DNA of 29,471 bases from a virus, in IMG/VR virus record IMGVR_UViG_3300021440_000093, positions 1 to 29,471 of that record. The stretch is one strand, 5' to 3'. Positions within the stretch are counted from its first letter, which is position 1, and each line of letters starts with the position of its first letter. Positions 8,568 through 29,471 of this stretch are shown in pieces. Under the pieces are notes generated by a model, which was given only the letters and a program-made list of their open reading frames with translations, was not told where the DNA came from and ran no database searches. A program made the position numbers and the translations under genes.

Positions 8568-8598
8568 CTCTAGTTATTTAGAGTAAAGGAGTAATAAA

Positions 8599-8670: not shown

Positions 8671-8689
8671 TAATGAAAGGAGAATAATC

Positions 8690-8878
8690 ATGGCTGCTAA
8701 GAAAGAACCAAAGGCTACTGCCAATCATATTGACTATAAAGATTCGTCCTTGCATCACGACTTGACTGAAATCAAAGTCTTGCTTGGCTGCATGTTAAAG
8801 GACATTGATAAATTATCAGAGAACATCAATGTAGTTACACGCATTGAGAAGATCAGGGCGGGTATGTGCGATGAGTAA
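8690..8878 (+). CDS. 62-residue protein before the small terminase
   Basis: GAAAGGAG precedes ATG 8690. It has a Lys/Ala-rich start, then a helical stretch DLTEIKVLLGCMLKDIDKLSENI and a C-terminus ending CDE. The stop overlaps the small terminase start by 8 bases, so the two are coupled. No family recognised. A DNA-packaging accessory or regulator is possible from position only. Confidence 0.7.
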   Translation: MAAKKEPKATANHIDYKDSSLHHDLTEIKVLLGCMLKDIDKLSENINVVTRIEKIRAGMCDE

Positions 8879-9305: not shown

Positions 9306-9308
9306 TAA

Positions 9309-10948: not shown

Positions 10949-11207
10949 CTGTAAAGGATGTAAGGCTTATTGCTGTCGTAAGATTGGCCTATTGGATCCT
11001 ACATTAGACCGTGGGGACTGTGTATGCAAGCATCTTGATGAGACCACCTGTAAATGCAAGATATATGAGTCTAGACCTCTTATCTGCAATACCGATAGAT
11101 TATATGATGCTGTCTTCAATTTCATGCCACGGGACGAATATGACGCAAATAATGCACAGGGATGCAAAGCGCTCAAAGAACTATTTATAGAGGGAAAGGA
11201 GGATTAA
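10938..11207 (+). CDS. YkgJ-type cysteine-cluster protein (putative metal-binding)
   Basis: The product has 89 residues from ATG 10938, fixed by GGAG 7 bases upstream; the longer frame from 10917 lies in the preceding gene. The cysteines C5-x2-C8-x3-C12-C13, C28, C30, C38, C40 and C50, together with KHLD and IYESRPLIC, form the pattern of the YkgJ/UPF0153 family, proposed to chelate zinc or iron. The family is known mainly from bacteria. Here it stands inside the packaging operon, overlapping the HNH gene and abutting the gp4-like gene. Role in a phage is unknown; a metal-dependent modification or assembly factor are options. Confidence 0.75.
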   Translation: MAINCKGCKAYCCRKIGLLDPTLDRGDCVCKHLDETTCKCKIYESRPLICNTDRLYDAVFNFMPRDEYDANNAQGCKALKELFIEGKED

Positions 11208-12152: not shown

Positions 12153-12161
12153 GGAGAATTT

Positions 12162-13889: not shown

Positions 13890-13898
13890 GGAGGTTAC

Positions 13899-14201
13899 AT
13901 GGCTAATGTTGATGTAAAGATCGTTCGCTATGACGAATCTAACCAGAACATTGAAGCTCTTAAAGGTCAATTTGGGCAATTAGGCGATAAGAAGGCTGTA
14001 TTTACTATCTTAAAGAATCTATTGATAATCAGCCTTCATGCCGGCGCCAAATATGATAATGCGAAGTTGCCATCAGTGTATGATGGCTTCATTCAGTTAT
14101 CAAATGGTCAAAGGATTCAAGTAAAGGACAGTACTTTGACATGCTCACTAGGAAGCAATGTAACCGGCTTTGGTATCCTCGTGTTACAGAAGTGGAATTA
14201 A
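13899..14201 (+). CDS. Small virion-region protein, 100 residues, unknown
   Basis: TAAGGAGG is ideally placed before ATG 13899. A helical segment (residues 15-50) is followed by a beta-rich C-terminal half ending FGILVLQKWN. It lies between tail hub and ejection genes, where P22 has its needle gene gp26, but it lacks the long coiled coil of gp26. Function unknown; a tail or adaptor component is likely from position. Confidence 0.75.
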   Translation: MANVDVKIVRYDESNQNIEALKGQFGQLGDKKAVFTILKNLLIISLHAGAKYDNAKLPSVYDGFIQLSNGQRIQVKDSTLTCSLGSNVTGFGILVLQKWN

Positions 14202-14231
14202 GACTATTTATCAGGTAAAGGAGAATTTAAT

Positions 14232-14951
14232 ATGGCAGCACCACTTATAGCAGCGGGTATCGCTGCAGGCGCTTCACTCGCAGGCGCATACATGTCATCT
14301 CAGGCTCAGAAGGAAGCCGCTGCAGCTGAACGCGCAGCTCGTCAAGCTGCTGCTCAGCGGCTTCGTGCTCAAGGCCAGATTACCGACAGCGAATATAAGA
14401 CTATCATAAGTCAAATTGATAGTTACTATAATACACGCGGTAGCCTTGGATCTGAACAGGATGTAAATGAATATAAAGCAGCAATCCAAGGATATAATCC
14501 TGAAGATTATGTGTATGACATTAAGGACTTTGATTACAGCAAGTCTAAAGAGGACTTTCTCAATCCTTATTACAGCAAGATAATGAGCGACACAGCTCAG
14601 CAGATTCAACATTCTGCAGCCGGCGCTGGCCTCGGAAGAGGAACTGGTGCTGCCTTGAACATTGCTAAAGGAACTACTGAGAAATCTGATGAACTGTATA
14701 GAACTGCAATGCAAGATTACCAGCAGGACCGTAACTTTGCATATCAGCAGTATCAAGACGCTATTACGAATAATCAGAACAGACTTAATGCTCTTAATCA
14801 GGCTAATCAGTATAAGACTACACTTCAAGGCAACCTTGCTCAGGACTACTATAATACGCTTGATGCGCGTCAGTCGGATTTGATGAAAGCACAGCAAGAT
14901 CGCATGGCGGCTCAGACATCTTATTCAACCGCGATGGCCGGACTTTATTAA
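14232..14951 (+). CDS. Ejection (DNA transfer) protein, gp7/gp14-like
   Basis: The gene encodes 239 residues with AAAGGAG. A hydrophobic Ala/Gly-rich start (MAAPLIAAGIAAGASLAGAY) is followed by an Ala/Gln/Arg-rich helix. There is a GAGLGRGTGAALN glycine segment near residue 133 and a long Gln/Asn-rich helical tail. This composition and the place after the tail hub match the internal virion proteins of P22-like podoviruses that leave the capsid to form a channel across the envelope. Individual equivalence to gp7 or gp14 cannot be decided. Confidence 0.6.
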   Translation: MAAPLIAAGIAAGASLAGAYMSSQAQKEAAAAERAARQAAAQRLRAQGQITDSEYKTIISQIDSYYNTRGSLGSEQDVNEYKAAIQGYNPEDYVYDIKDFDYSKSKEDFLNPYYSKIMSDTAQQIQHSAAGAGLGRGTGAALNIAKGTTEKSDELYRTAMQDYQQDRNFAYQQYQDAITNNQNRLNALNQANQYKTTLQGNLAQDYYNTLDARQSDLMKAQQDRMAAQTSYSTAMAGLY

Positions 14952-14963
14952 GTAGGAGATATT

Positions 14964-15431
14964 ATGGGAATTTATAATCGTGATAACATCAATTATGCTG
15001 GAATGATTCAGAACATGCTAACTAACGCACAGCGCGGCGGACAGATTAACGCTGATGAAATTCGTAAGCAAGGTGAAATTTGGGGTGGTGCCGTTAATGA
15101 CATCGGTAGCAAGGCAGCAAATGCATACCTTTGGTCTGACATGTATCTGACTGATGAAGAGAAGTTGCTTGAACAGAAGAAAGCAGAAGCTGAAGCATTG
15201 AAAGCACAGGAATCTGCTATTGCGGTTAACTTGATGAATGACTATTCACAGGATGTTGGAATGGTTGGCAACACTAATAAATACGCTGAGTATAGCCCTA
15301 ACGTTGCTGGAAATTACTCAAGGAGCGCTGTGGCATCTAATCCGTATGCAATCCCTGGAAATCCTTACGCATCACAGGAAGAATACTTTAAGTACATTCA
15401 GGCTATGAACGGTATCTATGGAGGTAGATAA
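14964..15431 (+). CDS. Probable internal virion protein
   Basis: The gene encodes 155 residues; AGGAG precedes ATG 14964. Helical N-terminal part (MIQNMLTNAQRGGQINADEIRKQ), an acidic/Lys-rich helix KLLEQKKAEAEALKAQES, and a low-complexity Asn/Pro/Tyr tail with the near-repeat SNPYAIPGNPYAS. Located between ejection-type proteins and overlapping the next start (TAATG). No family recognised; virion internal protein is inferred from context and composition. Confidence 0.6.
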   Translation: MGIYNRDNINYAGMIQNMLTNAQRGGQINADEIRKQGEIWGGAVNDIGSKAANAYLWSDMYLTDEEKLLEQKKAEAEALKAQESAIAVNLMNDYSQDVGMVGNTNKYAEYSPNVAGNYSRSAVASNPYAIPGNPYASQEEYFKYIQAMNGIYGGR

Positions 15432-16339
15432 TGCCTTATCCATATAAGAATTACATTCCGACTTCTTATCAGGAAGCAATGACAGGCAACATTGGTTATG
15501 ATAGCCAAGATCTTATTGACCACGATGCTACACCGTGGGCTTCTGAGTCACGTGCTAACATGGACCAACTTAATGCTGAAATTGCTGAACTTGAGAAGAA
15601 AGTCGCTGAGCAACGTGCATCAAGAAGTCGCCAACTTAGCGATATGAAAGCAGATCCGCGTTGGAACATTGCGTCATTGCAGTTCATCTTGAATGGTGAC
15701 CGTTCTGGTATGGACGCCATTGCATCATCAGTTCAAGCAAGAGAACAGATGGAGAACAGCGCAGCACTTCAGCGTGCTATCAAAGCACAGGAAGAAGCAG
15801 TTCGCTTTGATGATAACATGCTTAACTGGCAGAAGGCTGAGAACGTTCTTTCCGCAGCTAAGCAGAAATTTAAGTCATATAAAGGCCGTGAATTTGAAGA
15901 AGGCTATCGTGATGCTCAACTTGAACTCGCTAATGCTGAGGCACAGGCTGCTCATTGGCGTAAGAAAGTTGGTAAGACTGAACCCGCTAAAGACGAAGTT
16001 GCTACAGTTGATACTAAAGCTGATGGCGAATTTAAAGCAAAGGAAGATGAATTGGTTAAGACAGCTGAAGGAAAGATTGCTAATGCAGACACAGATGCAG
16101 GTGTTGCTGCTGCACAGGACGCAATTAACTTAGTTCAGAATCCTGAGACGAGAAAGCAGCTCAATGATAAATTGGCACCTAAGGTCGGTAAGACTAAGGA
16201 AGCACAGAAGAAAGCCCACGCTGAGAAGGTCGCTGCTGCCAAGGCTGAACTTGAATCAGTTAAGAAGAAAGGCGTTGCGGCTCTCATACGTTGGAAGCAA
16301 GTAAATCCTGATAAGTATAAATTGGCTGAAGGAGAATAA
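15431..16339 (+). CDS. Coiled-coil internal virion / ejection protein
   Basis: The gene encodes 302 residues; GGAGG lies in the preceding gene and the start overlaps its stop. Residues 40-65 and about 100-260 are long Ala/Glu/Lys-rich coiled coils (for example AEIAELEKKVAEQRAS). A charged Lys-Ala segment around residue 250 is reminiscent of structural rod proteins. Order between two other internal virion proteins suggests an ejection-apparatus part. The antisense open frames here arise from the codon pattern and are not genes. Confidence 0.6.
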   Translation: MPYPYKNYIPTSYQEAMTGNIGYDSQDLIDHDATPWASESRANMDQLNAEIAELEKKVAEQRASRSRQLSDMKADPRWNIASLQFILNGDRSGMDAIASSVQAREQMENSAALQRAIKAQEEAVRFDDNMLNWQKAENVLSAAKQKFKSYKGREFEEGYRDAQLELANAEAQAAHWRKKVGKTEPAKDEVATVDTKADGEFKAKEDELVKTAEGKIANADTDAGVAAAQDAINLVQNPETRKQLNDKLAPKVGKTKEAQKKAHAEKVAAAKAELESVKKKGVAALIRWKQVNPDKYKLAEGE

Positions 16340-16341
16340 TA

Positions 16342-17844
16342 ATGGGTGCATTTAAAGATAAGATCGTTGAAGAATTGGCTATGGCCTATCAGGATGATCT
16401 AGCTGAACTCATCAACGGAATGGACTCTGATGTTGATGTGGCAAATTATCTTGCATCAGCTGGTCCTGTTCTTTCAAGACGTTACACTACACCAGATCTT
16501 GAGAAGATGCCGGAGTTCCGTAAGGCACTTTATGCTGAACTTAAGACCGGAAAGGTTGACTACGAGAAAGAATTTGGAAAGGATTGGTATAAGAACTTTG
16601 GACAGATTCCCCTTGACCAAATTAGATTCGTTGCCGATAAGCAAGGTCTCGACTGGAAGGAATTGAATAAGAAGATGGCTGAAGACGCAACCAAAGCACT
16701 TCGTTACGACATTGCTCATGACGGTACCATTGCTGGCGCCATCACTAACATGGTATTCCCGCGTTCAGTTGAAGCGGTTGAACGTGGTGAAAGCCCGTCT
16801 ACTAAGGATGTTACGTTGGATGTTGGCGAGAATGCGCTTTATGCCGTTCCTTGGGCACGCGGTGCTCAGGCTATTGCCAAGGGCGGACGAGTGGCTAAAG
16901 TTCTTTCTAATCCTGTGGTTCAAGGTGGACTTTCTAACGTTACTCAACCACTAGTATCGGAAGTAGCTGATGCAGCTCTTTATGACGAAGGCCCGAGAGG
17001 TGAATTTAACCCTTATGAAGTTGGTGCTGGTGTTGGTACTAACGTCGTTGGCGGTGCATTGCTTAGAGGTGCTGGTGCTGGTATTGGCCGTGTTAATGAT
17101 AAAGCTGGCGCTTGGCTGCGTGATCTTGGTACAGGTAAGACTGCTGCTGAAATGACAGATGATCTTGCTAAGCAGTATAGAACATTCAACATCGCTAACG
17201 CAGATAACCCAACAGTTAGCGCTGAAGTCCGTAAGTTCGCACAGGATATGAAGTCACTTTCTTCAATCAATCCTGAACTTTATGCAGCTGCAGCAGGACG
17301 TAATGCTCCTATCTGGGAAATTGCTGCACAGCCTGGAAAGAACATTGAAGAGAAGACTATCAACTGGCTCAAATCACAGGGCGTGAAAGACTATGCATTG
17401 GTTCAAGGCACAGGCGACATCGTATCATCACCAGACTTGCCTACGCTTTATAATAATGCAAAGGCCGCTGAGCTTGAAGTTACTCCTGAACTTGCTGAAC
17501 ATTATGGACCTATGGCTGCATTCCGTCAGCCTACTACCGAGTATGTTCATTCTCCAGTGACCTATAAGTTGCTAACTAATTATGATAAGTTAGGTCTAGG
17601 AAGAACAGAAGGAGCTAAGACATTGGCTCAACTTGCGGCTGAGGAATCTGTTAAGAATTATATGACTAACCAATTTGGTTCATATCAGAATGAACAGGGA
17701 AAGGCCTTAACACGTATTCCGATCTTTGGACCTTATGTTCAGAAAGTTCTTGATGAGAAGGAAGCTGAAGCATTACGAAAGGCTAAAGAGGAAGCAATTA
17801 AAGAAGACCTCAAGCGTAAGTATAAAGTAATCTTTGGAGAATAA
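16342..17844 (+). CDS. Large ejection / internal virion protein (gp16/gp20-like position)
   Basis: The gene encodes 500 residues; AAGGAG precedes ATG 16342. The N-terminal 130 residues are acidic and helical. The middle (about residues 150-260) is a chain of Gly/Ala-rich hydrophobic segments such as VGENALYAVPWARGAQAIAK and GAGVGTNVVGGALLRGAGAG, fit for membrane insertion. The C-terminus is a Lys/Glu-rich helix. This is the usual make-up of podoviral ejection proteins that cross the host membrane. It carries no lysozyme or peptidase motif that I can see. Its stop is one base before the tailspike start. Confidence 0.6.
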   Translation: MGAFKDKIVEELAMAYQDDLAELINGMDSDVDVANYLASAGPVLSRRYTTPDLEKMPEFRKALYAELKTGKVDYEKEFGKDWYKNFGQIPLDQIRFVADKQGLDWKELNKKMAEDATKALRYDIAHDGTIAGAITNMVFPRSVEAVERGESPSTKDVTLDVGENALYAVPWARGAQAIAKGGRVAKVLSNPVVQGGLSNVTQPLVSEVADAALYDEGPRGEFNPYEVGAGVGTNVVGGALLRGAGAGIGRVNDKAGAWLRDLGTGKTAAEMTDDLAKQYRTFNIANADNPTVSAEVRKFAQDMKSLSSINPELYAAAAGRNAPIWEIAAQPGKNIEEKTINWLKSQGVKDYALVQGTGDIVSSPDLPTLYNNAKAAELEVTPELAEHYGPMAAFRQPTTEYVHSPVTYKLLTNYDKLGLGRTEGAKTLAQLAAEESVKNYMTNQFGSYQNEQGKALTRIPIFGPYVQKVLDEKEAEALRKAKEEAIKEDLKRKYKVIFGE

Positions 17845-17845
17845 C

Positions 17846-20368
17846 ATGAGATCATGGGATAATTGGAACAGATATCAGGATAACCAGAACCATCCTTTGC
17901 ATGGCTGCATTCAGTTCATGGTTAAGGATGGAAATACGGTTGCTCCTATCTATGACGCTGATGGCGTAAGTCTGCCCAACCCAATCATAACTGACGTATA
18001 CGGTAGAACACAGCATCAGGTCTTCGTAGAAGAAGACGTTCGTGCTTATTTCTACCTTTACATTGGCGATGGTTCATGGGCATCAGAACAGGACATTGAC
18101 ACTTCGGACATTACGAAGTGGTCTTTGCAGTATACATCTGAAAGCATTGACTCATCAACAGTTAACATTAACGCAACAGCCGCTTATGCAGTGAATAGCA
18201 TTGCCGATCTTCGTGCGTTAGACCCTGCATCTATTCCTTCATTTGATGGACATACAGTTATCACATTGCTTGGATATAACACAGCCGGCGATAAAGAACC
18301 AATTAACTATGTGTGGGATCCTACAGCACATGCTGCAGATGACGGCGGATCTGTTATAGCTGGGTCTGAGCTTACTGGCCGTTGGATAATGGTTCAGCCT
18401 ACAGAGCATCTTGATGTAAGACATTTCGGCGTCTTTCCTTCAAATTCTCAGAATATGTCAGACCAGACCATTCAGATTCAAAGAGCTTGCATTTATGCAA
18501 ATAATCATGGACTAAGAATGTTCTTTGATATGGTCAGCGATACACAGACATATCGTTACTATAAGTTGAGCAATATCACCTTGACTCCTGTTCAGACTAT
18601 TGACGTTGCTAAAGGCGTGCAGTTCATTGATAGTGATGTAACTATCAGAAGTTCAAGTGTTCAAGCATTCAATAATGATCCTTACTTCATTAACGCATCA
18701 ACTAACCTTTACAGCAATTATGCTAAGTCAAGCTGGAACATCAAGACTTTGAATAAAGCACAGGCTAACGTTGAAGGAACTTACATCATTGATGACGCAA
18801 GCAAGTCAACTAACATTACTACGCTGCAGGGATGGAACGTAAATGTAAATGCTAACATTTCAGGATTTACATTCCATCTATGTAACATCAGCGGTCTAGG
18901 TATCATTTCAAATTCTACTATTACATCATGCCTATTGGATGTCATTGGTACTTTGGATGTTGGAAATACATATAACGCATGTAAATTGACTAAGCAGATG
19001 TTCAATAACACACCTGCACATGCTGGCATTCATGGTTGCTTCTTGGATGTTGCTGACTTCTATGAATACTTGCCTTATTGGACATACCTTAACTGGTCGC
19101 AAGACACTACTGCATTAGACTTTAATAACATGCCTGTAACGCAGAACATGGACATCAACTTTGCGAATAAGTCTGCTGACTGGGTTATTTCTAACTTCAT
19201 TGGAAATGGTCAACATAAGTTCTATGAAGCAGGCGTAACACATGTCTATACATTCAATAACTGCAAAGGTAATATCACATTGATGGCTAACTGGGTTGAT
19301 AATGTGTATATCTTCAATGACTGCGATGTTAACATTACAGTTGAGACAGCAAATCGTGCTATCACTATTCAGTGTAATGGCGGTAATGTTAACTTTACAC
19401 AGGACTTGCCTAATGCAGTAATCATTGGAAGATCATCTAATGTTGGATTGCAGAATACATATAAAGAACTCGTATTCAGAGACTCCTCATTTGCTGGACC
19501 TACTGATTCGTCCGTGGTTACATGTGATAACTTCACTTCATATAACTCTATCATTATGGAAGCAGTCCGTGCTAAGAACATGGTCGTTAAGGATTCTCAA
19601 ATCAATAAGAAATTAACTTCAATAGTTAACTCTGACCATCAGCTGACGTTCTTCTTGGATAATAACATCTTCAACGCACAGCATGAGCTTAACACTGATA
19701 ATGAAAGCAACGTTATAGTTGCGGCTGGTACCTGGACTAATAACACTGCGGCAGTTGCGGATCCTATTATTCTCACGGCAGGACTTTATCAGACTGATGC
19801 AGCTCACCACTATGTATATGAGAATAACACAGGAACGTTCTTGCCAAAGAACATAAAGCAAATGTTCCAAGCACAGGGATGCTACACTATCTATGGCGAT
19901 GTATGGCATGCATATTACTTGAATGCGCCTGAACTGTTCACAGTTCCACACCTAGTCTATAGAGGTGATGCATTCCCTATCCTTGATGGTTCTAACCGAG
20001 CAAGATATGCATACGGCGTGTTCATTCCGCAGTTATGGCAACCTAACTGTGCGTTCTTCAGCATTGGCGCTGCAATTAAGAGAGTAAAGCTGACTGTTCA
20101 TGTACCGTTCAGCGGTAACGTATCACCGTTAAATGGTACTTCATTCAGCCCAGTCGCTGCTTGGGATTACGCATATAGTGCCGAACTAATCATAACAGCA
20201 AATGGCGCTAATCATAAGTTGACTGAATTTAACGGACAGATGCTTGCTGGTCCGCAGTACATTCCTTATTCATACGATTTGCCTAAGGATGTACCGTATG
20301 ACAGCTCGACCATTCCACCCGCTGATGCAGGTTCAGGCTACTTTATGATTGAGATTGAAATATCTTAA
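17846..20368 (+). CDS. Tailspike with predicted beta-helix
   Basis: The product has 840 residues from ATG 17846 (GGAG six bases upstream); the longer reading begins at a TTG inside the preceding gene. Residues 1-110 look like a virion-attachment domain: HGCIQFMVKDGN, PNPIITDVYGRTQHQVFV, YLYIGDG. Residues 150-215 resemble the entry to pectate-lyase-type spikes (INYVWDPTAHAADDGG, HFGVFPSN, TIQIQRACIYANNHG). A long Asn/Thr-rich beta-solenoid follows (about 220-650), then a compact C-terminal part. Such spikes bind and often cut surface polysaccharide; catalytic acids cannot be assigned. Lying between the ejection genes and the portal is unusual. Confidence 0.75.
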   Translation: MRSWDNWNRYQDNQNHPLHGCIQFMVKDGNTVAPIYDADGVSLPNPIITDVYGRTQHQVFVEEDVRAYFYLYIGDGSWASEQDIDTSDITKWSLQYTSESIDSSTVNINATAAYAVNSIADLRALDPASIPSFDGHTVITLLGYNTAGDKEPINYVWDPTAHAADDGGSVIAGSELTGRWIMVQPTEHLDVRHFGVFPSNSQNMSDQTIQIQRACIYANNHGLRMFFDMVSDTQTYRYYKLSNITLTPVQTIDVAKGVQFIDSDVTIRSSSVQAFNNDPYFINASTNLYSNYAKSSWNIKTLNKAQANVEGTYIIDDASKSTNITTLQGWNVNVNANISGFTFHLCNISGLGIISNSTITSCLLDVIGTLDVGNTYNACKLTKQMFNNTPAHAGIHGCFLDVADFYEYLPYWTYLNWSQDTTALDFNNMPVTQNMDINFANKSADWVISNFIGNGQHKFYEAGVTHVYTFNNCKGNITLMANWVDNVYIFNDCDVNITVETANRAITIQCNGGNVNFTQDLPNAVIIGRSSNVGLQNTYKELVFRDSSFAGPTDSSVVTCDNFTSYNSIIMEAVRAKNMVVKDSQINKKLTSIVNSDHQLTFFLDNNIFNAQHELNTDNESNVIVAAGTWTNNTAAVADPIILTAGLYQTDAAHHYVYENNTGTFLPKNIKQMFQAQGCYTIYGDVWHAYYLNAPELFTVPHLVYRGDAFPILDGSNRARYAYGVFIPQLWQPNCAFFSIGAAIKRVKLTVHVPFSGNVSPLNGTSFSPVAAWDYAYSAELIITANGANHKLTEFNGQMLAGPQYIPYSYDLPKDVPYDSSTIPPADAGSGYFMIEIEIS

Positions 20369-20400
20369 GAACCTAATTATTGACAGTAAAGAGGTTAATA

Positions 20401-22278
20401 ATGAACGATAAATCATTTGATAATGAAGAGATAATCGCTCAATGCGAAAGCTTCCTTTCAAAGTCAGATAAGCGCTTTGCTAATACGATTGACAGAGCTG
20501 TGGATGATATGAGACGCTATTCCGGAGACTTCTGGAATACGTCTTTCATTCGTAAGTATAAGAGAGGAAAGCGTATAAATCTTGCATTGAATAACTGGAA
20601 CCCGCTAGCTAACGCAATTAGCTCGCCAATCTCAAATTCACCTTGGCATATCGAGTTGACGAATAAAGAGAAGGAACTTGATGTTATTCAGCAAGCTATT
20701 GACACGATTGAAGCAGATACAGATACCAAGAGTGCATTGGTTGATGCATTCCGTAAAGCAGTACTTACAGGATACGGCTTCTTGGTCGTTACTACCGTTG
20801 AAGACGAATACACAGGCGAACCTAAAGTAATCGTTGAGTCAGCAACTCACATTGATGCTATTGCATTTGACCCGTCATGTACATCAGTTGAAGGATCTGA
20901 CGCTGAAGAAGGCGCTATCATCAACTATATGCCAGTTAAGAAAGCAAAGCGTCTTTATGGCGATGACGTGGTACCTGAGTATTTCCCATCCATTGACACA
21001 GCAATTTCATTTAATAACTTTGACCAATGGACTGTTCCAGATGATTCAGTTGCTGTCATTTCTTACTTCGTTAAGAATAAGCAGGACATGGTTGATTACT
21101 ATAAGATCGTAGGCGATAAAGTGGTACAGCATACAGTATTGCCTATACGCTTTATTCCTATCATTCGTATCGCTGGTAATGAAATCTTCGAGAAAGACCA
21201 GATTAACTATAACGGTATCATTCAGCAGACATTGACATTGGAACTTGGTGCTAACATTGCGTATTCTTCTCTGATTGAAAGAGTAGGTCGCTCCGCTAAA
21301 GCCAATATCATGGCTAACGTAGATGCAATTAAAGGACTTGAACAGAACACCGCAGCAATGAACCAAGATGATTCTGTCGCTATCCTTTGGAAAGGCGAAC
21401 ATCAGCCAGTACTTCTTCAGGAACAGTTCCAGACTGGTGACCTTCAGGCAACTATCAGTACATGCCGCACATTGATGGAAGATACCTTGGGTATCCCATT
21501 GACTGGTATAGTAGATCAGAAGGAACGCACAGCAACTGAAATTCTCCGTCAGGAAGCATCTAAGGAATCTAACACTGCATCTTACTATAATAACGCATAT
21601 AAGGCAGTAAGATTGCTTGGAAAGATTATCATTGAACTCCTTAATGAAGGCCGTGATTTGATGTTCACTTTAGAGAACGGACCGTCTGTAATTACGAGAG
21701 AAATGAAGGCACGTCAGGAATTGACTGCTATGTCAACTATCATGCCTGATGAAATGAAGCCAATTATCGCTAAGTACTTTGCAGATACATTGAAGAATGA
21801 CCTTGGACAGGAATTGAGCGATAACATAGTTGCTAACCTTCCACCTAACGTCAAATTCGTTACTGCTAATCAGGATCCGGCTGCTATTCACGTTATGAAT
21901 CAGATGCAAGCTCAGATTGATGATACATTACAGCAACTTGAAGAATCTCGCGCTGAAGCAGAACAGCTGAGACAGCAGTTAACTGCAGCACAGTTGAGTA
22001 TGTTGGATAACCGTGAACAGCGTGTACTTGACTTCCAGAAGTTCCAAATTCAGCAACAGGATAAGATGCTTCTTGAGACTGCTAAATTGCAGCAACAGGG
22101 TGTCAAGATTGATAATGATGCTATGTTGAAGCAACAGGAAGTCAATATCAAGGCTGCTGAAAGCAGCATGGCTAAAGCAGAAGCTGAGACTGACGCTGCA
22201 TTACGCGAACAGCAGGCATACATTGACGGTGTTGCCGATGGTTCCGTGGAGACAGTTAAATCCATCATAGGAGGCTAA
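20401..22278 (+). CDS. Portal protein, P22 gp1-like
   Basis: The product has 625 residues from ATG 20401 with AGAGG upstream. Recognisable are the N-terminal RFANTIDRAVDDMRRYSGDFW, the DAIAFDPSCTSVEGSDAEEGA segment typical of P22-type portals, and EKDQINYNGIIQ. Also present are ERTATEILRQEASKESNTASYYNNAY and a long C-terminal Gln/Glu-rich coiled coil (520-600), matching the barrel-type tail of P22 gp1. It forms the dodecameric DNA channel and works with the terminase. It lies far downstream of terL, unlike in P22. Confidence 0.85.
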   Translation: MNDKSFDNEEIIAQCESFLSKSDKRFANTIDRAVDDMRRYSGDFWNTSFIRKYKRGKRINLALNNWNPLANAISSPISNSPWHIELTNKEKELDVIQQAIDTIEADTDTKSALVDAFRKAVLTGYGFLVVTTVEDEYTGEPKVIVESATHIDAIAFDPSCTSVEGSDAEEGAIINYMPVKKAKRLYGDDVVPEYFPSIDTAISFNNFDQWTVPDDSVAVISYFVKNKQDMVDYYKIVGDKVVQHTVLPIRFIPIIRIAGNEIFEKDQINYNGIIQQTLTLELGANIAYSSLIERVGRSAKANIMANVDAIKGLEQNTAAMNQDDSVAILWKGEHQPVLLQEQFQTGDLQATISTCRTLMEDTLGIPLTGIVDQKERTATEILRQEASKESNTASYYNNAYKAVRLLGKIIIELLNEGRDLMFTLENGPSVITREMKARQELTAMSTIMPDEMKPIIAKYFADTLKNDLGQELSDNIVANLPPNVKFVTANQDPAAIHVMNQMQAQIDDTLQQLEESRAEAEQLRQQLTAAQLSMLDNREQRVLDFQKFQIQQQDKMLLETAKLQQQGVKIDNDAMLKQQEVNIKAAESSMAKAEAETDAALREQQAYIDGVADGSVETVKSIIGG

Positions 22279-22281
22279 CGT

Positions 22282-22758
22282 ATGCTCTTTAACGTATTGA
22301 ATGGCGGTTCTGTTGGTGCTGGAGGAAATCCAGCCGCTAACATGCAGACGCAAAGAATGCATGACGAGTTGCTGGACATCGCCAATCTTCCGGACTATTA
22401 TGCAGTTATGGCCTTGCCTCCTGGTCCTCAGAAGGAAATTGCTATTGCTGCATTACATGACCAAGCAGAACTTAATGAAGCAATGGTACCTGAATACTGG
22501 AAAGATGATGCTGTTCCTCGTCAACCTTTAACATTACAGTCTTCATGGGTTCAACCAATTCAGTATGACCCAGTGACTAAGGTTATGACTGTGTTCGGCA
22601 AATCTTACGCTAATGTGGATCCACAGACTGTATCAGATATCGTAAATGGCGACATGTTCGTTCATAAGCCAGGTTCAATTGGTTCTGCTATGAATAAATT
22701 CTGGGATGATAGATTTGGTGTTGACCGTCCTAGAGGACGTGCTGCTAAAGGCATATAA
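22282..22758 (+). CDS. KTSC-domain protein
   Basis: The gene encodes 158 residues; AGGAGG precedes ATG 22282, three bases after the portal stop. The C-terminal half (SSWVQPIQYDP, VMTVFGKSYANVDPQTV, GSIGSAMNKFW) matches the KTSC domain: an SS start, a YD-x-TV-FG-Y beta pattern and a final S-G-xx-F. The N-terminal half is helical, with LPDYYAVMALPPGPQKEIAI. KTSC domains occur in phage and bacterial proteins with no settled function. It may bind portal or DNA. It is followed by 72-bp element C. Confidence 0.65.
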   Translation: MLFNVLNGGSVGAGGNPAANMQTQRMHDELLDIANLPDYYAVMALPPGPQKEIAIAALHDQAELNEAMVPEYWKDDAVPRQPLTLQSSWVQPIQYDPVTKVMTVFGKSYANVDPQTVSDIVNGDMFVHKPGSIGSAMNKFWDDRFGVDRPRGRAAKGI

Positions 22759-22765
22759 GAAATAA

Positions 22766-22837
22766 AGTATCACTTATTTCCCAAATAATATATTCAATCT
22801 ATTCCATTATTATATTAAATGGGAAGAAAGTGATACT
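22766..22837 (-). repeat. 72-bp palindromic element, copy C (inverted)
   Basis: In reverse orientation it matches copy B except for one arm. Its left arm is AGTATCACTTATTTCCCA (A-type) and its right arm is the complement of the B-type arm, so two stem positions are unpaired. Flanking TTAAG and a CAAATTT block next to the B-type arm also resemble the left flank of copy B. It sits between the KTSC gene and the scaffold gene. Confidence 0.9.
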
Positions 22838-22879
22838 TAAGAAATTTGAATTGATGTACTAAGACATCCCTAATTATAT

Positions 22880-22912
22880 TGCGTAGAAGGATAACGGTGG
22901 TTCTCCTACGCA
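22880..22912 (+). promoter_or_regulatory. Leader hairpin before the scaffold/coat genes
   Basis: TGCGTAG (22880-22886) pairs with CTACGCA (22906-22912). Closer to the start, CACCGGTG (22924-22931) and GGTG/CACC (22928-22943) can enclose the AAGGA ribosome site of the scaffold gene. These may protect the mRNA or tune translation of the two most abundant assembly proteins. No T-tract follows, so termination is unlikely. Confidence 0.45.
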
Positions 22913-22945
22913 TCACTTTATAACACCGGTGAAGGATGACACCTT

Positions 22946-23935
22946 ATGTCTATGTCAACAGAACAGGCACTTGCTTATTTGAGCAAGGAAGATACTTCGG
23001 TTCAACCGGAGAATACACCAGCTAATGAACCACAGGCTACAGAGACTGTCTCATCAACAGAACCTGAAGTTAATGATTCTAAATCAGAAGTTAAGGACGT
23101 CGCTTCTCCTGAAGATAACGCTGATAAGACCAATGACGGCGAACCTAAATCTGAAGTTGATACCAAGGCTGATAACCCAGGGACTGCTAAAGATGATAAA
23201 GTTGAGAAGAAGGATGAAAGACAGGCTCAGAGAGACTATGCATTCATCCGTGAGAAGAATAAGCGTAAGCAACAGAAAGAACGCTATGAAGCACGCATTA
23301 AGGAACTAGAAGCAGAACTCAAGAAGCGTGATAATCTAGAAGCCAAGCATTTCCAGAAAGAAGACGGCACTCCAGATCCTGAGGCGTATGTGCATAATGA
23401 ATTTGCTAAGCGCGATATGAAAGATGAGTTAAATCGCATTCGCCAGCAAGACATGTATGAACAGCAGCAATTGGAAATTGAGCAAGACCGAATCATTACT
23501 GAACGTTGCTTTGAAGGCAAAGATCTAGATGATTATCGCAGCCTGATTTCTACCAAAGGACCAGCATTTGCTGCAGCGTTGAAAGAGAATGATCCGAATA
23601 ACGTCGTTCTTGGCTACCTTGATACTCTCCAAGAATATCCTGTAGTAGTTCGAGAATTGATGACTAACCTCGGAACATTGCGTCGCCTATTCAGAAGCAG
23701 GGATCCTGAAGCATTGAAATATAATGTTAGAGTAATTGCGGATGAAATCCTTGAGAAGCATCATTCTGCACTGCCGCAGAACAGTGTTCCGCAGACAGAT
23801 GTAGTTGAGAAGAAATCAATTCCCGTCATTGGGAAGCAAATCAGTTCACAGAGCAACACTAATTCTGCTAACGCATCGCTCGTTAAGGATTGGGGCTCAA
23901 TTAACGCTTACCTAGCAAAGCATAAGTATCGCTAG
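22946..23935 (+). CDS. Scaffolding protein
   Basis: The gene encodes 329 residues; AAGGA lies nine bases before ATG 22946 (a second ATG at 22952 is possible). The first 90 residues are acidic and low-complexity (repeated EVNDSKSEV, EPKSEVDTK). A charged coiled coil runs at about 95-185 (KNKRKQQKERYEARIKELEA). A helical C-terminus ends in basic AYLAKHKYR, the usual coat-binding helix-turn-helix type end of P22-like scaffolds (P22 gp8 has 303 residues). The place directly before the coat gene confirms it. It would direct prohead assembly and leave before DNA filling. Confidence 0.8.
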   Translation: MSMSTEQALAYLSKEDTSVQPENTPANEPQATETVSSTEPEVNDSKSEVKDVASPEDNADKTNDGEPKSEVDTKADNPGTAKDDKVEKKDERQAQRDYAFIREKNKRKQQKERYEARIKELEAELKKRDNLEAKHFQKEDGTPDPEAYVHNEFAKRDMKDELNRIRQQDMYEQQQLEIEQDRIITERCFEGKDLDDYRSLISTKGPAFAAALKENDPNNVVLGYLDTLQEYPVVVRELMTNLGTLRRLFRSRDPEALKYNVRVIADEILEKHHSALPQNSVPQTDVVEKKSIPVIGKQISSQSNTNSANASLVKDWGSINAYLAKHKYR

Positions 23936-23959
23936 GACATATTAAAGGAGAAATAAATT

Positions 23960-25171
23960 ATGGCAAATGATATTAAGACTAACCGCAGGGCAGAACTCGT
24001 TCTTATCCGTTCTGCAGAAGCAGCACCTTATCTTACTGTTGGTTCTAAGAACTACTGTAAGGATCAGCTCGTTGGCAAGCGTAATGGCCAGAGCTATGAA
24101 TTCGTCATTCGTGACGCTGGTGAATACGTTGAAGGCATGGACATTTCCGCATCTGGATCTGAAGACGTCATCGAACGTAAGGTTACCAAGAACATCAAGA
24201 TTGGTAACGTAAAGGTTAACACCAACTTGCTCGAGAAGGTTACTGACCTTAACTGGGATAAGGAAATTGCTGAACCGTATGGTGAGAAGGTTGCTAAGGG
24301 CCTCGTTGAATCGGTTCTTAAGGATGACATCGGTCTCCAGAACACTGCATTCGTGGGAACTGGCTGGCTTCCGCTCTTCAAGGCATCTAACTTCCTTGAA
24401 TCTATCTCGTCTGAAGCTCAGTACGCATTCGTTGACCCGATGATTGACTCTATCATGCAGTCAAGCGGCAAGGGCTTTACACCGGCTGGTGATGTTGAAC
24501 CACGCTTCCAGAAGAACCTCAAGGGTACTGTTGGTCAGGCACAGGTTCGCGGACAGCAAGGTATGCCTACTTTGGAAATCTCTGAAGATTTGGCTGCTGA
24601 ACTTGCATCTGCAACAGTTACATCTTACGCAACTGGTGCTGACTATGACACCTTGACATTGAACGGTGTAACCGAAGACATTCCGGCAGGTACTCCGCTC
24701 TTCATACAGGGAGTCTACGCAACTGACCTCGTCGGTCAGAAGACTTCTGCTCCGAAGGCATTCATCGCTATTGAAGACGCAACTTCTGGTTCCGTAAAGG
24801 TCCGTAAGGTTGACTTCGTTGGCAATGGAACTCGTGAAGCTTGCGATAAGGACGGCGATAACATCGTTCTTTCTAGCCTTGCTACTAAGAAGCTCGCTAA
24901 TCCGATTAAGGCTGGTATCTATTTCACTGGTATCTTCCGCGTGAACGGTGCTATGGAATTTGATGCTCTTCCGGAATTGGATTGGTCTAACGCTGACAGC
25001 CGCGTAAGCACACCTGATGGTATCACTCTTCACACTGGTCGTGCAGTGGATGTATTCGCTGGTACCAATAAGACTCGCTTTGCTATCGCAGCAGTCGCCG
25101 GCATCGTGGAACCTCGTGGATGTGTATACGTCTGCGTTAAGGATTCTACAGCCAACCTCGTGGCTATGTAA
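23960..25171 (+). CDS. Major capsid (coat) protein, P22 gp5-like
   Basis: The gene encodes 403 residues (P22 gp5 has 430); AAAGGAG precedes ATG 23960. The pattern of P22-type coat proteins is seen: RRAELVLIRSAEAAPYL near the N-terminus, VIRDAGEYVEGMDI, KVNTNLLEKVTDLNWDKEI, a DDIGLQNTAF stretch, then a beta-rich insertion-like region (about 205-290). A C-terminal ITLHTGRAVDVFAGTNKTRFAIAAV follows (shown only in part). Codon choice is more biased than in the neighbours (mostly AAG for Lys, CTC/CTT for Leu, AAC for Asn), a sign of very high expression. It is followed by a strong terminator. Confidence 0.85.
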   Translation: MANDIKTNRRAELVLIRSAEAAPYLTVGSKNYCKDQLVGKRNGQSYEFVIRDAGEYVEGMDISASGSEDVIERKVTKNIKIGNVKVNTNLLEKVTDLNWDKEIAEPYGEKVAKGLVESVLKDDIGLQNTAFVGTGWLPLFKASNFLESISSEAQYAFVDPMIDSIMQSSGKGFTPAGDVEPRFQKNLKGTVGQAQVRGQQGMPTLEISEDLAAELASATVTSYATGADYDTLTLNGVTEDIPAGTPLFIQGVYATDLVGQKTSAPKAFIAIEDATSGSVKVRKVDFVGNGTREACDKDGDNIVLSSLATKKLANPIKAGIYFTGIFRVNGAMEFDALPELDWSNADSRVSTPDGITLHTGRAVDVFAGTNKTRFAIAAVAGIVEPRGCVYVCVKDSTANLVAM

Positions 25172-25198
25172 TCAGCTCTAATTTCCTTTAGAGACTAT

Positions 25199-25232
25199 AA
25201 GACCCTTGGGCAAATACTCGCTCAAGGGTCTT
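25199..25232. terminator. Bidirectional intrinsic terminator after the coat gene
   Basis: AAGACCCTTG (25199-25208) pairs with CAAGGGTCTT (25223-25232). It stands between the convergent coat and glycosyltransferase genes. The tails are TCTTTCTG rightward and TCTTATAG leftward; as at 3796-3829 no run of four T is present. Confidence 0.85.
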
Positions 25233-25240
25233 TCTGTATT

Positions 25241-26224
25241 CTACTTAAATAATTCTATGTATTTACGCCAGTCAAGCCATCTGCTTTGAAGTACATTATA
25301 CTGATGGGCTATAATTTCATCGTAATGCTCATTCGCACGCTCTACGATGTACTTTATTGCAGTTGCTGTTGAGTTGACAGGTATTCTCTGTAGAGGATGC
25401 GAGACCTCATTATAAGGACATCCAGGGAACTCTGATACGAGGCATACTCGACCAACAGCGCAAGACTCAATATACTTCAAGTCAGACTTGCATCTGTTAA
25501 AGTTATTATCTGCTAGTGGAGCAATAATGAATCTATTCTGCAACGCACATCTAGCGAACTGAATTGGATAATCATCAATGTCAACCCAATTACTTAATAG
25601 TCTTGCTTTAGGCAAGAATGAAGGCGTTCTGCCCATGACAGTCACATCTTTATTATTAAGATAATGAACGAGTCCTTTAGAGAAGTCGCCATAGTTATCT
25701 GGAGTCCAATGCGTAGGTGATCCGGCATATAGAAATGACATATTATTAGGCGATGGGTATCTATCAAATCTCCATCTATGAAAGTCAAGGCAGTTCGGCA
25801 TTATGATAATCTTATCTTCCGGAACGAACTCCATCAATGACTTCTTAATGTACTCATTGGTGCATGTTACTTTATCTGCTAAGTCATTGAGGTATTGCTT
25901 CATTGCATCTTTCACGCCATCTTGATTAAGTCCGCATTTATTAAATTCAGGCATTTCATTCCAGACATCGTCATCATAGTCAATCACGAACTTTACATTA
26001 TATTTCTTCTTTATATCAAGCAACGGTTCAAATAGTTCTTTATGAATGATTCGCTGTGTAAAGAACCATTCCTGCCCATAATAATGGAATGACCCAGGCG
26101 GCGACAGTGTAATCTTTGCTTCATTATACATTACCTGTGCTGGATATGCAATGCGATAACGGCCGCAAGCTTTATAGTCCAAGGGAACGCAATTTATCTT
26201 TATCTTCTCTTCTGTATTAGTCAT
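25241..26224 (-). CDS. GT-B glycosyltransferase-like protein
   Basis: The gene encodes 327 residues. It has GRYRIAYPAQ near residue 21, FVIDYDDDVWNEMP at 79-92 (the D-D-x-W signature of phage and bacterial GT-B enzymes), PNCLDFHRW, and FLYAGSPTHWTPDNYGDF. A nucleotide-sugar-site-like CKSDLKYIESCAVGRVCLVS block follows, with a Lys and Glu at family positions. The ATG at 26224 overlaps the stop of the sigma-like gene by 8 bases, so the two are coupled. It could glycosylate virion proteins, phage DNA or host surface glycans; the substrate is unknown. GAGG is the ribosome site. Confidence 0.7.
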   Translation of the reverse strand: MTNTEEKIKINCVPLDYKACGRYRIAYPAQVMYNEAKITLSPPGSFHYYGQEWFFTQRIIHKELFEPLLDIKKKYNVKFVIDYDDDVWNEMPEFNKCGLNQDGVKDAMKQYLNDLADKVTCTNEYIKKSLMEFVPEDKIIIMPNCLDFHRWRFDRYPSPNNMSFLYAGSPTHWTPDNYGDFSKGLVHYLNNKDVTVMGRTPSFLPKARLLSNWVDIDDYPIQFARCALQNRFIIAPLADNNFNRCKSDLKYIESCAVGRVCLVSEFPGCPYNEVSHPLQRIPVNSTATAIKYIVERANEHYDEIIAHQYNVLQSRWLDWRKYIELFK

Positions 26225-26702
26225 TGAAATATGTCCTCACTTTATGATCATTTACGTCTTCACAGTAATCTTCATAGGCTTGCTTACAGTGTTCTTCTAT
26301 AAGGTCTTGGCGTCTAGCGTCATCAATCTTCATCGTATAGTAGTGACACGCCGATGTATAACCAATACGATATGCGTATGAATAGAGCTTACCTTTATCT
26401 GGGTTGAATAACTTTAGGCCAGGCAACATCTCAAAGTATTGCTGTTCAAGTATTTCTTCTTTCTCGTTGCGTGGCTTATCTCTGAACTTAGGTCCTTCAA
26501 GCACCATTACACACATAGCCAGAATGTAATCACCGTAGCGGTTATTCTCTACATCAGTCAATCGTTCATTATTCTTCAATTTAATTACTAGCTGCTGGAA
26601 GTCATCAAGATCTACATCGTAGTATCGTCTATAGTCAGGATCTGTATAACTGATCTTTATCTTGCGCTTCCTATCAACAGCACGCCATTTAGGTATAATC
26701 AT
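26217..26702 (-). CDS. Sigma-factor-like protein, T4 gp55 type (late sigma candidate)
   Basis: The gene encodes 161 residues; AAAGGAG precedes ATG 26702. Residues 52-130 resemble sigma70 region 2 as kept in small phage sigmas: a helix GDYILAMCVMVLEGPKF, then EILEQQYFEMLPGLKLFNP, then DKGKLYSYAYRIGYTSACHYY and a basic/acidic helix KIDDARRQ. T4 gp55 (185 residues) has the same order (nFD-x-K-xx-xx-aY and a following helix) and recognises TATAAATA without a -35. Three TATAAATA sites stand before operons here, one in this gene's own leader. The N-terminus is basic. It could instead be a host-RNA-polymerase regulator; the sigma call is by motif pattern only. Confidence 0.55.
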   Translation of the reverse strand: MIIPKWRAVDRKRKIKISYTDPDYRRYYDVDLDDFQQLVIKLKNNERLTDVENNRYGDYILAMCVMVLEGPKFRDKPRNEKEEILEQQYFEMLPGLKLFNPDKGKLYSYAYRIGYTSACHYYTMKIDDARRQDLIEEHCKQAYEDYCEDVNDHKVRTYFND

Positions 26703-26741
26703 GTTCCATTCTCCTTTCCATATTTATTAGGCATGAATGTC

Positions 26742-26749
26742 TATTTATA
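26742..26749 (-). promoter_or_regulatory. TATAAATA motif before the sigma-like/glycosyltransferase operon
   Basis: The minus strand reads ACTATAAATAGAC; the motif lies 40-47 bases upstream of ATG 26702. Same octamer as at 5246-5253 (minus) and 7210-7217 (plus), without the extended 17-base identity. It suggests autoregulation of the sigma-like gene. Confidence 0.5.
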
Positions 26750-26759
26750 GTATGTAACA

Positions 26760-26767
26760 TATAAATC
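26760..26767 (+). promoter_or_regulatory. TATAAATC motif before the tail fibre gene
   Basis: TATAAATC, one base off TATAAATA, points rightward 27 bases before the fibre start and is divergent from the minus-strand site 11 bases away. It may drive the fibre/lysis operon through the circular join. No -35 is seen. Weak on its own; supported by position. Confidence 0.35.
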
Positions 26768-26793
26768 ACAGCTACGCTTTGGAGTAAAGGATA

Positions 26794-29471
26794 ATGATCA
26801 ATAATGACGAAGAAATTCAGTGGGCATATCTCTTAGATCCCACATTTGAGCTAGTCAATTCCGCAGGCAAGCCTTTGACTGATGGATGGCTAGAAGTATA
26901 CATTCACGGAACACGTAATAAGTATTACTGTGCATCTGACTTTGACGGAACATTACATCCGTTCAAGATTCCTCTAGATTCCCTCGGCGCCAACATCGTG
27001 TTGGCGTCTCCTGCTCATTCTTATGACGTCTATGTCTATAACAGGTTCGGATCTTTGGTGATGAGCCGTTATAACGTAGTGCCTGCTACTGGTGACGGAA
27101 GTGTCATTAAAGACGTCGTAACCATTACATCTGAAGATGGCACCGTTGATGTATCTACATCAGACCAGACTAATTGGGACTTATCCATTAAGAATACTGT
27201 AGACACAGTCGTTGAAGGATTGACCGAGCTCATCGCTGCTACAGGTGAAGATCTTCAAGATCAGATTGATAATAAGAAAGATAAGCAGACACCTTATTCA
27301 AAGTCTGGTTCGGTAACTAAGACTATTACCTCAATTAGCCAGAACGCGAACGGCGAAATTTCCGTAACATACAGCGACATTGATTTGCCGCCTGAAGTAC
27401 CTAACGTTGATCTTACATCACCGTGTGGAACTATTGACATTCAGACAGATGTTGATGTAGAGTCTAATACCAAGACATTTAAGATTGATGTTAAGAAGTC
27501 TAACATGCAGTACTTTGATGGCTATGCAGGTGCTAGCCATTATGAAGACCGTGACCCAGGTAGTGCATTTGCCTTCGGATGTCCTATGAATAACTGGAGT
27601 GAATATAAGTATGAAGGCGACTTTATCACTAATAATTGGCAGGCCGCAGGAAATATGAATTTCTTGCTAAAGCCAGGTATCTACTTGGTCACAGCAACTA
27701 TTCGTTACGCTATGACTAATACATCTGCCGCTAACGCAGATGGTTACATTCGTATAGCAACAGGTTCATATAATGGTCTTGAGAATGGTACTCGCTATAA
27801 AGACTGGTCACATGAATATCAGATGGGCGAGAACACTATTCAGATGGCATTCGTTCGCACGGTGCTTGATGGTGGTAACTATTCTTACATTGGTGGAAAT
27901 GACCTTTACTTCTATCCGTATTTGCCTTATGGTGTGAACTACGCACAGCTAGATCATCTTCAGATCGTAAAGTTGGATTCTGTGGTTGGTCAAGGCGGTG
28001 GTTCTGGTTCCAACACAGTCGTAACATCGTCAGATCATTCTGTTGAAATTACTGAGACTACTGTTGGTGACACTACTACTTATGACCTTTCTGTTGATGC
28101 AGCGAGCGGAACCGAATATACTGCTGGTGATGCAATAGATATTACCAACGACACTATCAACGTCAAGGTAAATCCGGCATCCGGCATTGACATAGTTGAT
28201 GATAAATTGGTGGTAAAGGTTGGAGAAGGTCTTTCTATAGATCCAGCATCTGGCTTGGTAATTATCAACTCTGAAGTTGGTGATGTAGTTGCTACTGTTG
28301 AGAAATTGAAGACCGACCTTGATACTCAGTTGACAGTTAACTTTGACATGCCAAATGTTGATAACGTATATGACTTTGCTGACCCATCTGTTATCGGTAT
28401 GTCAAATGGTGCAGTAATGCTCTGTCAGGCTTTCACAGTTCCTATCAATCACGACATTCGTGTTGATGATGGTGAGACTGAGAATCCTACACTCATTGGT
28501 ATCTATGCAAAGCAGGCTTTCACAGGTAAGAAGATTATGCTTGCCCTGTATGTCTATGACTTTGATACTGGCTATACAGATTATGTTGGCGATACTGGTC
28601 CTGTAGAAGTTACGCAAGGTAGAAATGAATTTCCATTAGTTCATATCAATTCTAACATTACTGAACTTAAATCTTCTTGCGTATACTATGCATCACTTTA
28701 CCTTCCTTCTAATGCTCACAGCAATGGTCTTTACCTTGCTGGTTGCCCATCATACAGTAATGCATCTTACATCAATGCTACACCAAGATTTACTGTAGGT
28801 GTTGAGAACATTATCAATCCTAACACTAACCAGGAAATTGATATGTCAAATGCTACTACTGGTAGATTGGATTTCAATGATGGTAATGGTAACTATTACA
28901 TTGGTCCTTGGTCAGATAACTATAATGAAAGACCTTCTATCCCAAGATTCTTTATGCAGATTCGTAATGGCGATGCTGAAGCACCTGTCGTAGTTGAACC
29001 ATTCACTGACATTGGAAGTTATACATTGAAGAATACTTCGTCTGTAACTGATGTATTTGGTTCAACTATCACAGTCAATACATCTACTTACGGTGCTATG
29101 TTCATGGAAGTTACACCTGCTCAAGATGTTGATGTTACTGGTTGGGTATGCTATGATAACTACAGCATAGATGAAAGAAATTGGTATGGAATGGTATTTG
29201 ATTCAAGCTTTGAGAACCAGTTATCTAGCAATAGTAACGGAACTGTATCTGAACTAGGTGAAATTTCAACTGGTGTATATGGTCATGAATTTACTCGTAG
29301 CACTCCACTTCATTTGACTGCTGGAACTACTTATAGATTCTTGGTCGGTATTCCTCATAGCAATAACGATATGCTAGTTCAGTATAATACACCTTCTGTA
29401 CCTAAGAATTTGCATCTATTTGAAAGTGGTTATAATGTATCTCAATGGGTTACATATAGCAGAGCAAATAA
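26794..29471 (+). CDS. Tail fibre protein (runs off the right end, completed at 1-266)
   Basis: ATG 26794 has GGAGTAAAGG upstream. The frame is open to the last base and continues at position 212 to the TAA at 264-266, giving 910 residues on the circle. Residues 1-100 form a virion-attachment type domain: LDPTFELVNSAGKPLTDGW, EVYIHGTRNKYY, DFDGTLHPFKIPLDSLG, YDVYVYNRFGSLV. Residues 105-330 contain a jelly-roll-like region and shaft-type sequences. Around residue 440 the repeat VNPASGIDIVDD / IDPASGLVIIN is typical of trimeric fibre shafts. The C-terminal 400 residues form beta-rich, Asn/Thr-rich modules likely to bind the receptor. No chaperone or enzymatic domain seen. Confidence 0.8.
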   Translation, partial: MINNDEEIQWAYLLDPTFELVNSAGKPLTDGWLEVYIHGTRNKYYCASDFDGTLHPFKIPLDSLGANIVLASPAHSYDVYVYNRFGSLVMSRYNVVPATGDGSVIKDVVTITSEDGTVDVSTSDQTNWDLSIKNTVDTVVEGLTELIAATGEDLQDQIDNKKDKQTPYSKSGSVTKTITSISQNANGEISVTYSDIDLPPEVPNVDLTSPCGTIDIQTDVDVESNTKTFKIDVKKSNMQYFDGYAGASHYEDRDPGSAFAFGCPMNNWSEYKYEGDFITNNWQAAGNMNFLLKPGIYLVTATIRYAMTNTSAANADGYIRIATGSYNGLENGTRYKDWSHEYQMGENTIQMAFVRTVLDGGNYSYIGGNDLYFYPYLPYGVNYAQLDHLQIVKLDSVVGQGGGSGSNTVVTSSDHSVEITETTVGDTTTYDLSVDAASGTEYTAGDAIDITNDTINVKVNPASGIDIVDDKLVVKVGEGLSIDPASGLVIINSEVGDVVATVEKLKTDLDTQLTVNFDMPNVDNVYDFADPSVIGMSNGAVMLCQAFTVPINHDIRVDDGETENPTLIGIYAKQAFTGKKIMLALYVYDFDTGYTDYVGDTGPVEVTQGRNEFPLVHINSNITELKSSCVYYASLYLPSNAHSNGLYLAGCPSYSNASYINATPRFTVGVENIINPNTNQEIDMSNATTGRLDFNDGNGNYYIGPWSDNYNERPSIPRFFMQIRNGDAEAPVVVEPFTDIGSYTLKNTSSVTDVFGSTITVNTSTYGAMFMEVTPAQDVDVTGWVCYDNYSIDERNWYGMVFDSSFENQLSSNSNGTVSELGEISTGVYGHEFTRSTPLHLTAGTTYRFLVGIPHSNNDMLVQYNTPSVPKNLHLFESGYNVSQWVTYSRAN
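29261..29471. repeat. Terminal redundancy, right copy
   Basis: Same 211 bases as 1-211 except C at 29346 against A at 86. See the left copy; both lie in the same reading frame of the fibre gene. Confidence 0.95.

Follow-up and report, generated by a model that had tools for sequence, protein, structure and literature searches.

Does the codon that follows set codon choice in the Lys/Glu-rich gene for a putative scaffold protein of this virus (Table 1), or does something wider act on its DNA? A preliminary description, made from the sequence of the IMG/VR virus record, had proposed that because of forbidden words Lys is AAA almost only before codons starting with G or T and AAG otherwise, and that Asn, Asp, Tyr and His codons end in T when the next codon starts with AA. 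We examined this proposal over the whole stretch of 29,471 bases, here called the window, and in related records.

Six tetramers absent from the window

The tetramers AAAA, AAAC and ACAA and their complements TTTT, GTTT and TTGT have no copy in the window, compared to 82, 89, 130, 57, 70 and 98 copies, respectively, expected from a second-order Markov model based on trimer counts. They are the only tetramers missing (6 of 256), and the longest run of A or T is three, which extends to the entire window what had been described for A runs in Lys-rich segments. The forbidden words are likewise absent from both strands of the 2,663 bases located outside open reading frames (ORFs).

The codon pattern was found to be without exception. 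The base after the 192 AAA codons for Lys in the window ORFs was G in 124 cases and T in 68, with A and C not occurring there, and none of these codons was preceded by A; AAG was followed by A 140, by G 93, by C 74 and by T 71 times. Codons for Asn, Asp, Tyr and His located before a codon starting with AA (61 + 94 + 66 + 15 = 236) ended in T in 236 of 236 cases and in C in none. We shuffled synonymous codons 300 times over 31 ORFs (26,958 nt), with the proteins and the codon pool preserved. The shuffled sequences contained on average 171 AAAA, 108 AAAC, 157 ACAA, 115 TTTT, 89 GTTT and 101 TTGT (minima 146, 84, 133, 87, 70 and 83), as compared to 0 observed for each word. Thus, the dependence on the next base persists when amino-acid order is kept, the pattern derives from the forbidden words (0 observed, 89–171 per word in shuffled codons), and the constraint on synonymous sites, previously described as strong, is total (0 words, shuffle minima 70–146). 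In the putative scaffold gene, Lys AAA was found 8 times before G and 4 times before T, and AAG 6 times before G, 5 before A, 8 before C and once before T. When the codons of this gene were shuffled 1000 times, the mean was 31.5 forbidden words and the minimum 17, compared to 0 observed.

The rule of the next codon is therefore exact, but too narrow, since the preceding codon, both strands and non-coding DNA obey as well and relatives follow different word sets. Codon-pair bias would be limited to the coding frames and to the sense strand, which was not seen in the window. Because non-coding DNA and both strands are word-free, it is DNA words that are avoided, not codon pairs; the unit of selection is the double-stranded DNA word, from which the rule of the next codon follows.

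The name scaffold has its sole basis in the position between the portal and putative capsid genes and in the Lys/Glu-rich make-up; the gene has no PHROG match and no significant Pfam match. Besides the terminase and portal genes, the window genes largely lack family matches, and the putative capsid gene has none (PHROG, Pfam). Searches of phage records gave no DNA match for the terminase-side region and no protein match for the tail gene. Most core genes are preceded by Shine-Dalgarno-like leaders (e.g., 11 of 12 in the window and 9 of 13 in the relative G007). The search with the tRNA-Ala gene gave no host link. Relatives carry genes for tRNA-Tyr, -Gly(ACC), -Pro(AGG), -Arg(ACG) and -Leu(AAG), several of them with unusual A34 anticodons.

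Table 1. Features of the window discussed in the text, with positions and the basis of each assignment.
Feature	Position	Strand	Basis
Whole window, zero AAAA/TTTT, AAAC/GTTT, ACAA/TTGT	1..29471	.	word count
Small protein, cluster c35, adjoins c36	3849..4238	-	weak NUMOD3-like motif, E 0.042, below cut-off
GIY-YIG (T5orf172) nuclease (predicted), cluster c36, candidate agent or co-factor	4521..5222	-	Pfam PF10544, structure, association
428-aa protein, cluster c47, primase-like by eye	5377..6663	-	no Pfam/PHROG match
912-base intergenic region between divergent genes, also word-free	6664..7575	.	word count
tRNA-Ala(TGC) gene	8599..8670		
Terminase large subunit	9309..10628	+	PHROG 2, E 2.2e-32
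HNH-like protein beside terminase, cluster c18	10625..10948	+	HNH by eye
Portal protein	20380..22278	+	PHROG 156, E 4.6e-26
Putative scaffold protein, 329 aa, gene named in the preliminary description	22946..23935	+	position
Putative major capsid protein, query for relatives	23960..25171	+	position

Relatives with different forbidden sets

A search with the putative capsid protein recovered 19 relatives at first and then 71 loci with an alignment, which we take from recognised sample numbers to be mostly from rumen metagenomes, and 38 whole relative records were read. AAAA was zero in 55 of the 71 loci, present in one copy in 3, at 4–20% of the compositional expectation in 2 and above 20% in 11. 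It was exactly zero in ten records of 29–36 kb with end repeats of 107–127 nt (G003, G006, G007, G008, G011, G012, G013, G015, G035, G036). Other records with such repeats do not avoid the word (G010, 130 copies; G038, 816 copies), and in G037, likewise with end repeats, both AAAA and GAAA are almost fully banned (3 copies and 1 copy). In total, 28 word-avoiding records (844,601 bp) contained 5 AAAA, compared to 6,004 (Markov) or 16,603 (composition) expected, a descriptive figure in that these records were picked as avoiders from 39; the other 11 were non-avoiders, chimeras, G025 and G037.

The sets of forbidden words differ among the relatives. Some ban AAAA by itself, others AAAA and AAAC (G007, G008, G011, L002) or AAAA and ACAA (G006, L003), and the window shares the full set of three with G018. 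Among distant relatives from a terminase scan, L320 bans only AAAC (0 vs 99 expected; AAAA 161 vs 162) and L294 only ACAA (0 vs 25 expected; AAAA 78 vs 95). Since the three words are banned independently, they represent separate units and not one relaxed motif. Avoidance is partial for ACAA in G002 (21 of 459 expected), AATC in G018 (12 of 256) and AAAC in G028 (32 of 170). Phages with a capsid protein identity of about 90% differ in their sets, and phages that ban AAAA span a GC content of 0.31–0.52. Palindromes are less cleanly avoided: GATC and TCGA are depleted in many genomes of the family, with GATC at 6 copies vs 167 expected in G007 and 0 vs 168 in G008, a near relative; AAAA and AAAC are zero in the two genomes.

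G011 combines window-like structural proteins (capsid 90%) with non-structural genes, GC content and a word set like those of G007 and G008. A methyltransferase-like gene is common to these three genomes, and this gene and their common GC could reflect a shared host. The difference in GC content between G011 (0.31) and the window (0.41) at 90% capsid identity suggests rapid recoding, perhaps upon a host switch.

In aligned genes, each of the four positions of the lost words had undergone changes, transitions as well as transversions, and about half of the replacements were synonymous. Such mixed replacements at all positions point to loss of the words by selection, and directed mutation or editing was rejected. 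Three non-avoiders nested among avoiders (G010, G016, G022) have low AAAA, with AAA at 0.37–0.51 of expectation, and look as if the ban had recently been lost.

Several further patterns were recorded among these sequences. Two seemingly chimeric contigs, G029 (65,950 bases) and G027, join an AAAA-free phage to an AAAA-containing one, and G002 seemingly joins two related genomes; AAAA content is thus a possible chimera detector. In a distant clade (L070, L071, L072, L075) AAAA is common and many restriction-like sites, among them CCGG, TCGA, CATG, CCAGG, ACCGT and CGACG, are at zero or close to it, as if these phages faced a big restriction arsenal. Among distant terminase relatives, the asymmetric word CCAG, with adenine on one strand, is zero or almost zero in L325, L329, L344, L345, L346, L352, L361 and L364. 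TTAA is exactly zero in L312, L327 and L328 (304, 221 and 63 expected). One contig of the family, L076, is binned in a single metagenome-assembled genome (MAG) of an uncultured Elusimicrobia, a weak hint at the host.

Genes associated with the word ban

We clustered the ORFs of all records. Two clusters, c24 and c36, were mutually exclusive among records; all ten AAAA-free records with 107–127-nt end repeats had one or the other, and none of the non-avoiders of the clustered set did. In a terminase tree of 50 rows, of which 12 were records added via the terminase scan, 25 of 25 carriers of c24 or c36 avoid the words and 16 of 20 non-carriers do not, with 5 rows with an uncovered region scored as unknown. 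There are about five independent contrasts in the tree, of which 3–4 have the same direction and none the opposite, too few for a sign test to be significant (median p 0.125). AAAA was lacking or nearly so in 7 of 7 loci recruited by c36; among 24 loci recruited by c24 it was zero in 23 and present once in the other. G288, with a terminase 28% identical, is an AAAC-only avoider over the 11.7 kb examined and carries c24 (E 5.6e-33). Nine non-avoiders (G289–G297, 25–37 kb) have neither gene, taking the records to cover the region.

The exceptions are avoiders with a covered non-structural region yet neither gene, namely the close kin G026, G027a and G028, and G037. G026–G028 have a helicase-type replication module that resembles that of the non-avoiders, and they also contain c35. 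Without proof, we read these and G037 as relics or third systems. The HNH gene c18 was rejected as the agent, as only 6 of these 10 end-repeat records without AAAA carry it, and it is present as well in that half of G029 which contains AAAA. Three records of about 26–35 kb (G012, G017, G031) contain c24 and almost no other recognisable replication genes.

The c36 protein of the window scored 23.9 bits against PF10544 (cut-off 20). The top VIA-align matches to its AF2 model (pLDDT 84.6) were to Slx1 (Z 6.2, rmsd 3.3, 81 aligned residues), which is below the clear level of the tool, and Foldseek alone gave no fold. Residues I133, Y134, K143, I144, G145, R153 and E180 are invariant, and c36 has a GIY-YIG nuclease domain in which the catalytic positions are conserved. 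In phage records it has only weak T5orf172-like matches (17 records). The c24 protein is a stand-alone DEDD exonuclease-like protein of about 200 aa with the fold of a polymerase proofreading domain (Foldseek E 8e-6; VIA Z 13.8, rmsd 2.8, 149 aligned residues), in which the acidic set (DxE, D, HxxxD; D9, E11, D119, H176, D180) is invariant or nearly so. It has no significant Pfam family and no match in phage records at E 1. The c24 proteins of G011 and G007, which ban the same two words, are only 30% identical. A PDB sequence search returned nothing for c36 and two insignificant rows for c24. PADLOC returned nothing for nine of ten proteins and one weak HamA match for a c36 member. No protecting methyltransferase partner of the candidate nuclease was identified.

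Candidate agents and known systems

Our favoured explanation, which we hold tentatively, is that a word-specific nuclease acts in every infection, probably phage-borne with c36 or c24 as the candidate agent, and that the phage purges the target words. Purifying selection acts on double-stranded DNA against specific asymmetric A-rich tetramers, and an agent present in practically all infections would destroy or disable any DNA with the word. This agent would most likely be a nuclease of the phage's early module (c36 here, c24 in the majority of relatives), acting by itself or together with a partner that confers specificity. If it cuts host or competitor DNA at the word, phage survival would need a word-free genome, and codon choice would be a by-product of the purge. 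A phage-borne agent is suggested by the ban on AAAA being stricter than that on palindromes, persisting over GC 0.31–0.52 and following the non-structural module in G011. Against the phage nuclease, c24 resembles a proofreading domain and not a known sequence-specific enzyme. Two unrelated nucleases share the word AAAA, so that neither clearly sets the specificity, and a common specificity factor, of phage or host, may exist. The partial sets of G002, G018 and G028 rather suggest that an outside agent is avoided incompletely, or that these sets are relics. It is conceivable, although we would not rely on it, that such phage nucleases are interchangeable, have a four-base asymmetric specificity and lack a protecting methylase, self-immunity being the absence of the word from the phage's own genome. 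If so, a new nuclease would force or require the recoding of a whole 30–36 kb genome, and the forbidden set would reveal which nuclease a phage has and would hinder both recombination and co-infection between phages with differing sets.

Exact zeros are unusual and might point to an artefact of sequencing, assembly or data, or to a sequence that is synthetic and recoded. Such an origin has a negligible probability, as the trait is found in many independent IMG/VR records from many metagenomes, with intact reading frames, and is missing from others in the same collections. A constraint on translation or RNA, such as codon-pair bias, frameshifting or transcript slippage at A or T runs, agrees with the exact codon pattern, and runs of A are slippery in general. 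It is nevertheless very improbable, since the words are equally missing from non-coding DNA and both strands, ACAA and AAAC are not runs, and AAAA persists in some relatives in which AAAC or ACAA is banned. 

A close rival to the phage-borne nuclease, which we consider somewhat less likely, is a host restriction-like defence with short, asymmetric and swappable words (AAAA, AAAC, ACAA, GAAA, AATC), which the phages would evade through the lack of any site. In that case c24 and c36 would be cargo that is usual for phages of such hosts, or would serve in counter-defence. The independent variation of the words resembles separate enzyme specificities, palindromes are also depleted in the family, and the adenines of AAAA, AAAC, ACAA and GAAA are on one strand, as one-strand methylating systems require. 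However, we know of no enzyme with sites of the AAAA, AAAC or ACAA type, and the GC range of the AAAA-banning phages presumably corresponds to different hosts. Avoidance of Type II sites would be expected to concern palindromes, and none of the three words banned in the window is one. Type III systems need two opposed (head-to-head) sites, so that a phage could keep those of one orientation, but in the window the words are missing in either orientation. Site avoidance is a known anti-restriction route, although in the available text of PMC6286503 it is absent or rare for Type I, IIG and III systems; a Type III methyltransferase with the four-base site GCAG exists, according to an extract of PMC3036652.

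The words could also be PAMs of the hosts' CRISPR-Cas systems (e.g., A-rich Cas9 PAMs), in which case a phage without PAMs would escape every spacer. Short asymmetric, degenerate and variable words fit this explanation; AAAAW/ANAAW, GATT and TGAAA are listed in the available part of PMC4246573, and NAAAAN for the Treponema denticola Cas9 in that of PMC5569134. Cas9 was above the cut-off in 53 of 247 genomes of the phylum of the MAG (Elusimicrobiota), a high share. We regard PAMs as improbable all the same, since the phage PAM depletion reported in the available text of PMC4246573 is slight and 818 Cas9-adjacent and 291 other-array spacers (1,109, from the candidate phylum only) match the phages no better than reversed-spacer controls do; the other arrays were from 20 cas1 regions picked from 37 cas1-bearing genomes among 119. 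An adaptive system would moreover tolerate new words briefly, and almost none are present in the 28 avoiding records.

A phage-borne agent would imply self-tolerance without modification, and a host-borne one would indicate that rumen bacteria have a type of short-word defence not described so far. In both cases the specificity of the agent can be predicted from the absent words, which makes it directly testable. Genomes that lack AAAA and are still competent to code are also of practical use for nuclease tools and as examples of recoding. Two known virus-borne systems are similar in part. T4 endonuclease II (DenA), like other phage nucleases, breaks down host DNA; it is a GIY-YIG enzyme with a short preferred sequence, and T4 protects itself from it by base modification. 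A phage-borne GIY-YIG domain is common to DenA and, by prediction, c36, whereas the protection predicted here is the absence of the word. Chlorella virus nicking enzymes are virus-borne, asymmetric and of low specificity, with sites of about three bases, and the virus's own sites are methylated; asymmetric recognition is alike, but here no methyltransferase partner was identified.

In the literature searched, we found no report of a total loss of asymmetric A-rich tetramers, of interchangeable sets or of AAAA-free phages, which does not prove that none exists. Word avoidance is already known, and the total loss of asymmetric A-rich words with switching sets appears to be new relative to that literature. 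Rusinov et al. (2018, PMC6286503) described that non-temperate phages avoid restriction sites, in some cases completely. The likeness is that words are removed from phage genomes, several palindromes included; the cases in the available text of that study are mostly orthodox Type II sites, whereas here the words are asymmetric, A-rich, exactly absent, interchangeable and linked to a putative phage nuclease. Kupczok and Bollback (2014, PMC4246573) described phage PAM depletion on both strands for short asymmetric motifs, which are alike in type; the published depletion is slight, to judge by the text available, whereas here it is total, with no spacer match among 1,109. The loss of several asymmetric tetramers and the switching of sets among close relatives are thus far above the depletion reported in the available text of these two studies (PMC4246573, PMC6286503).
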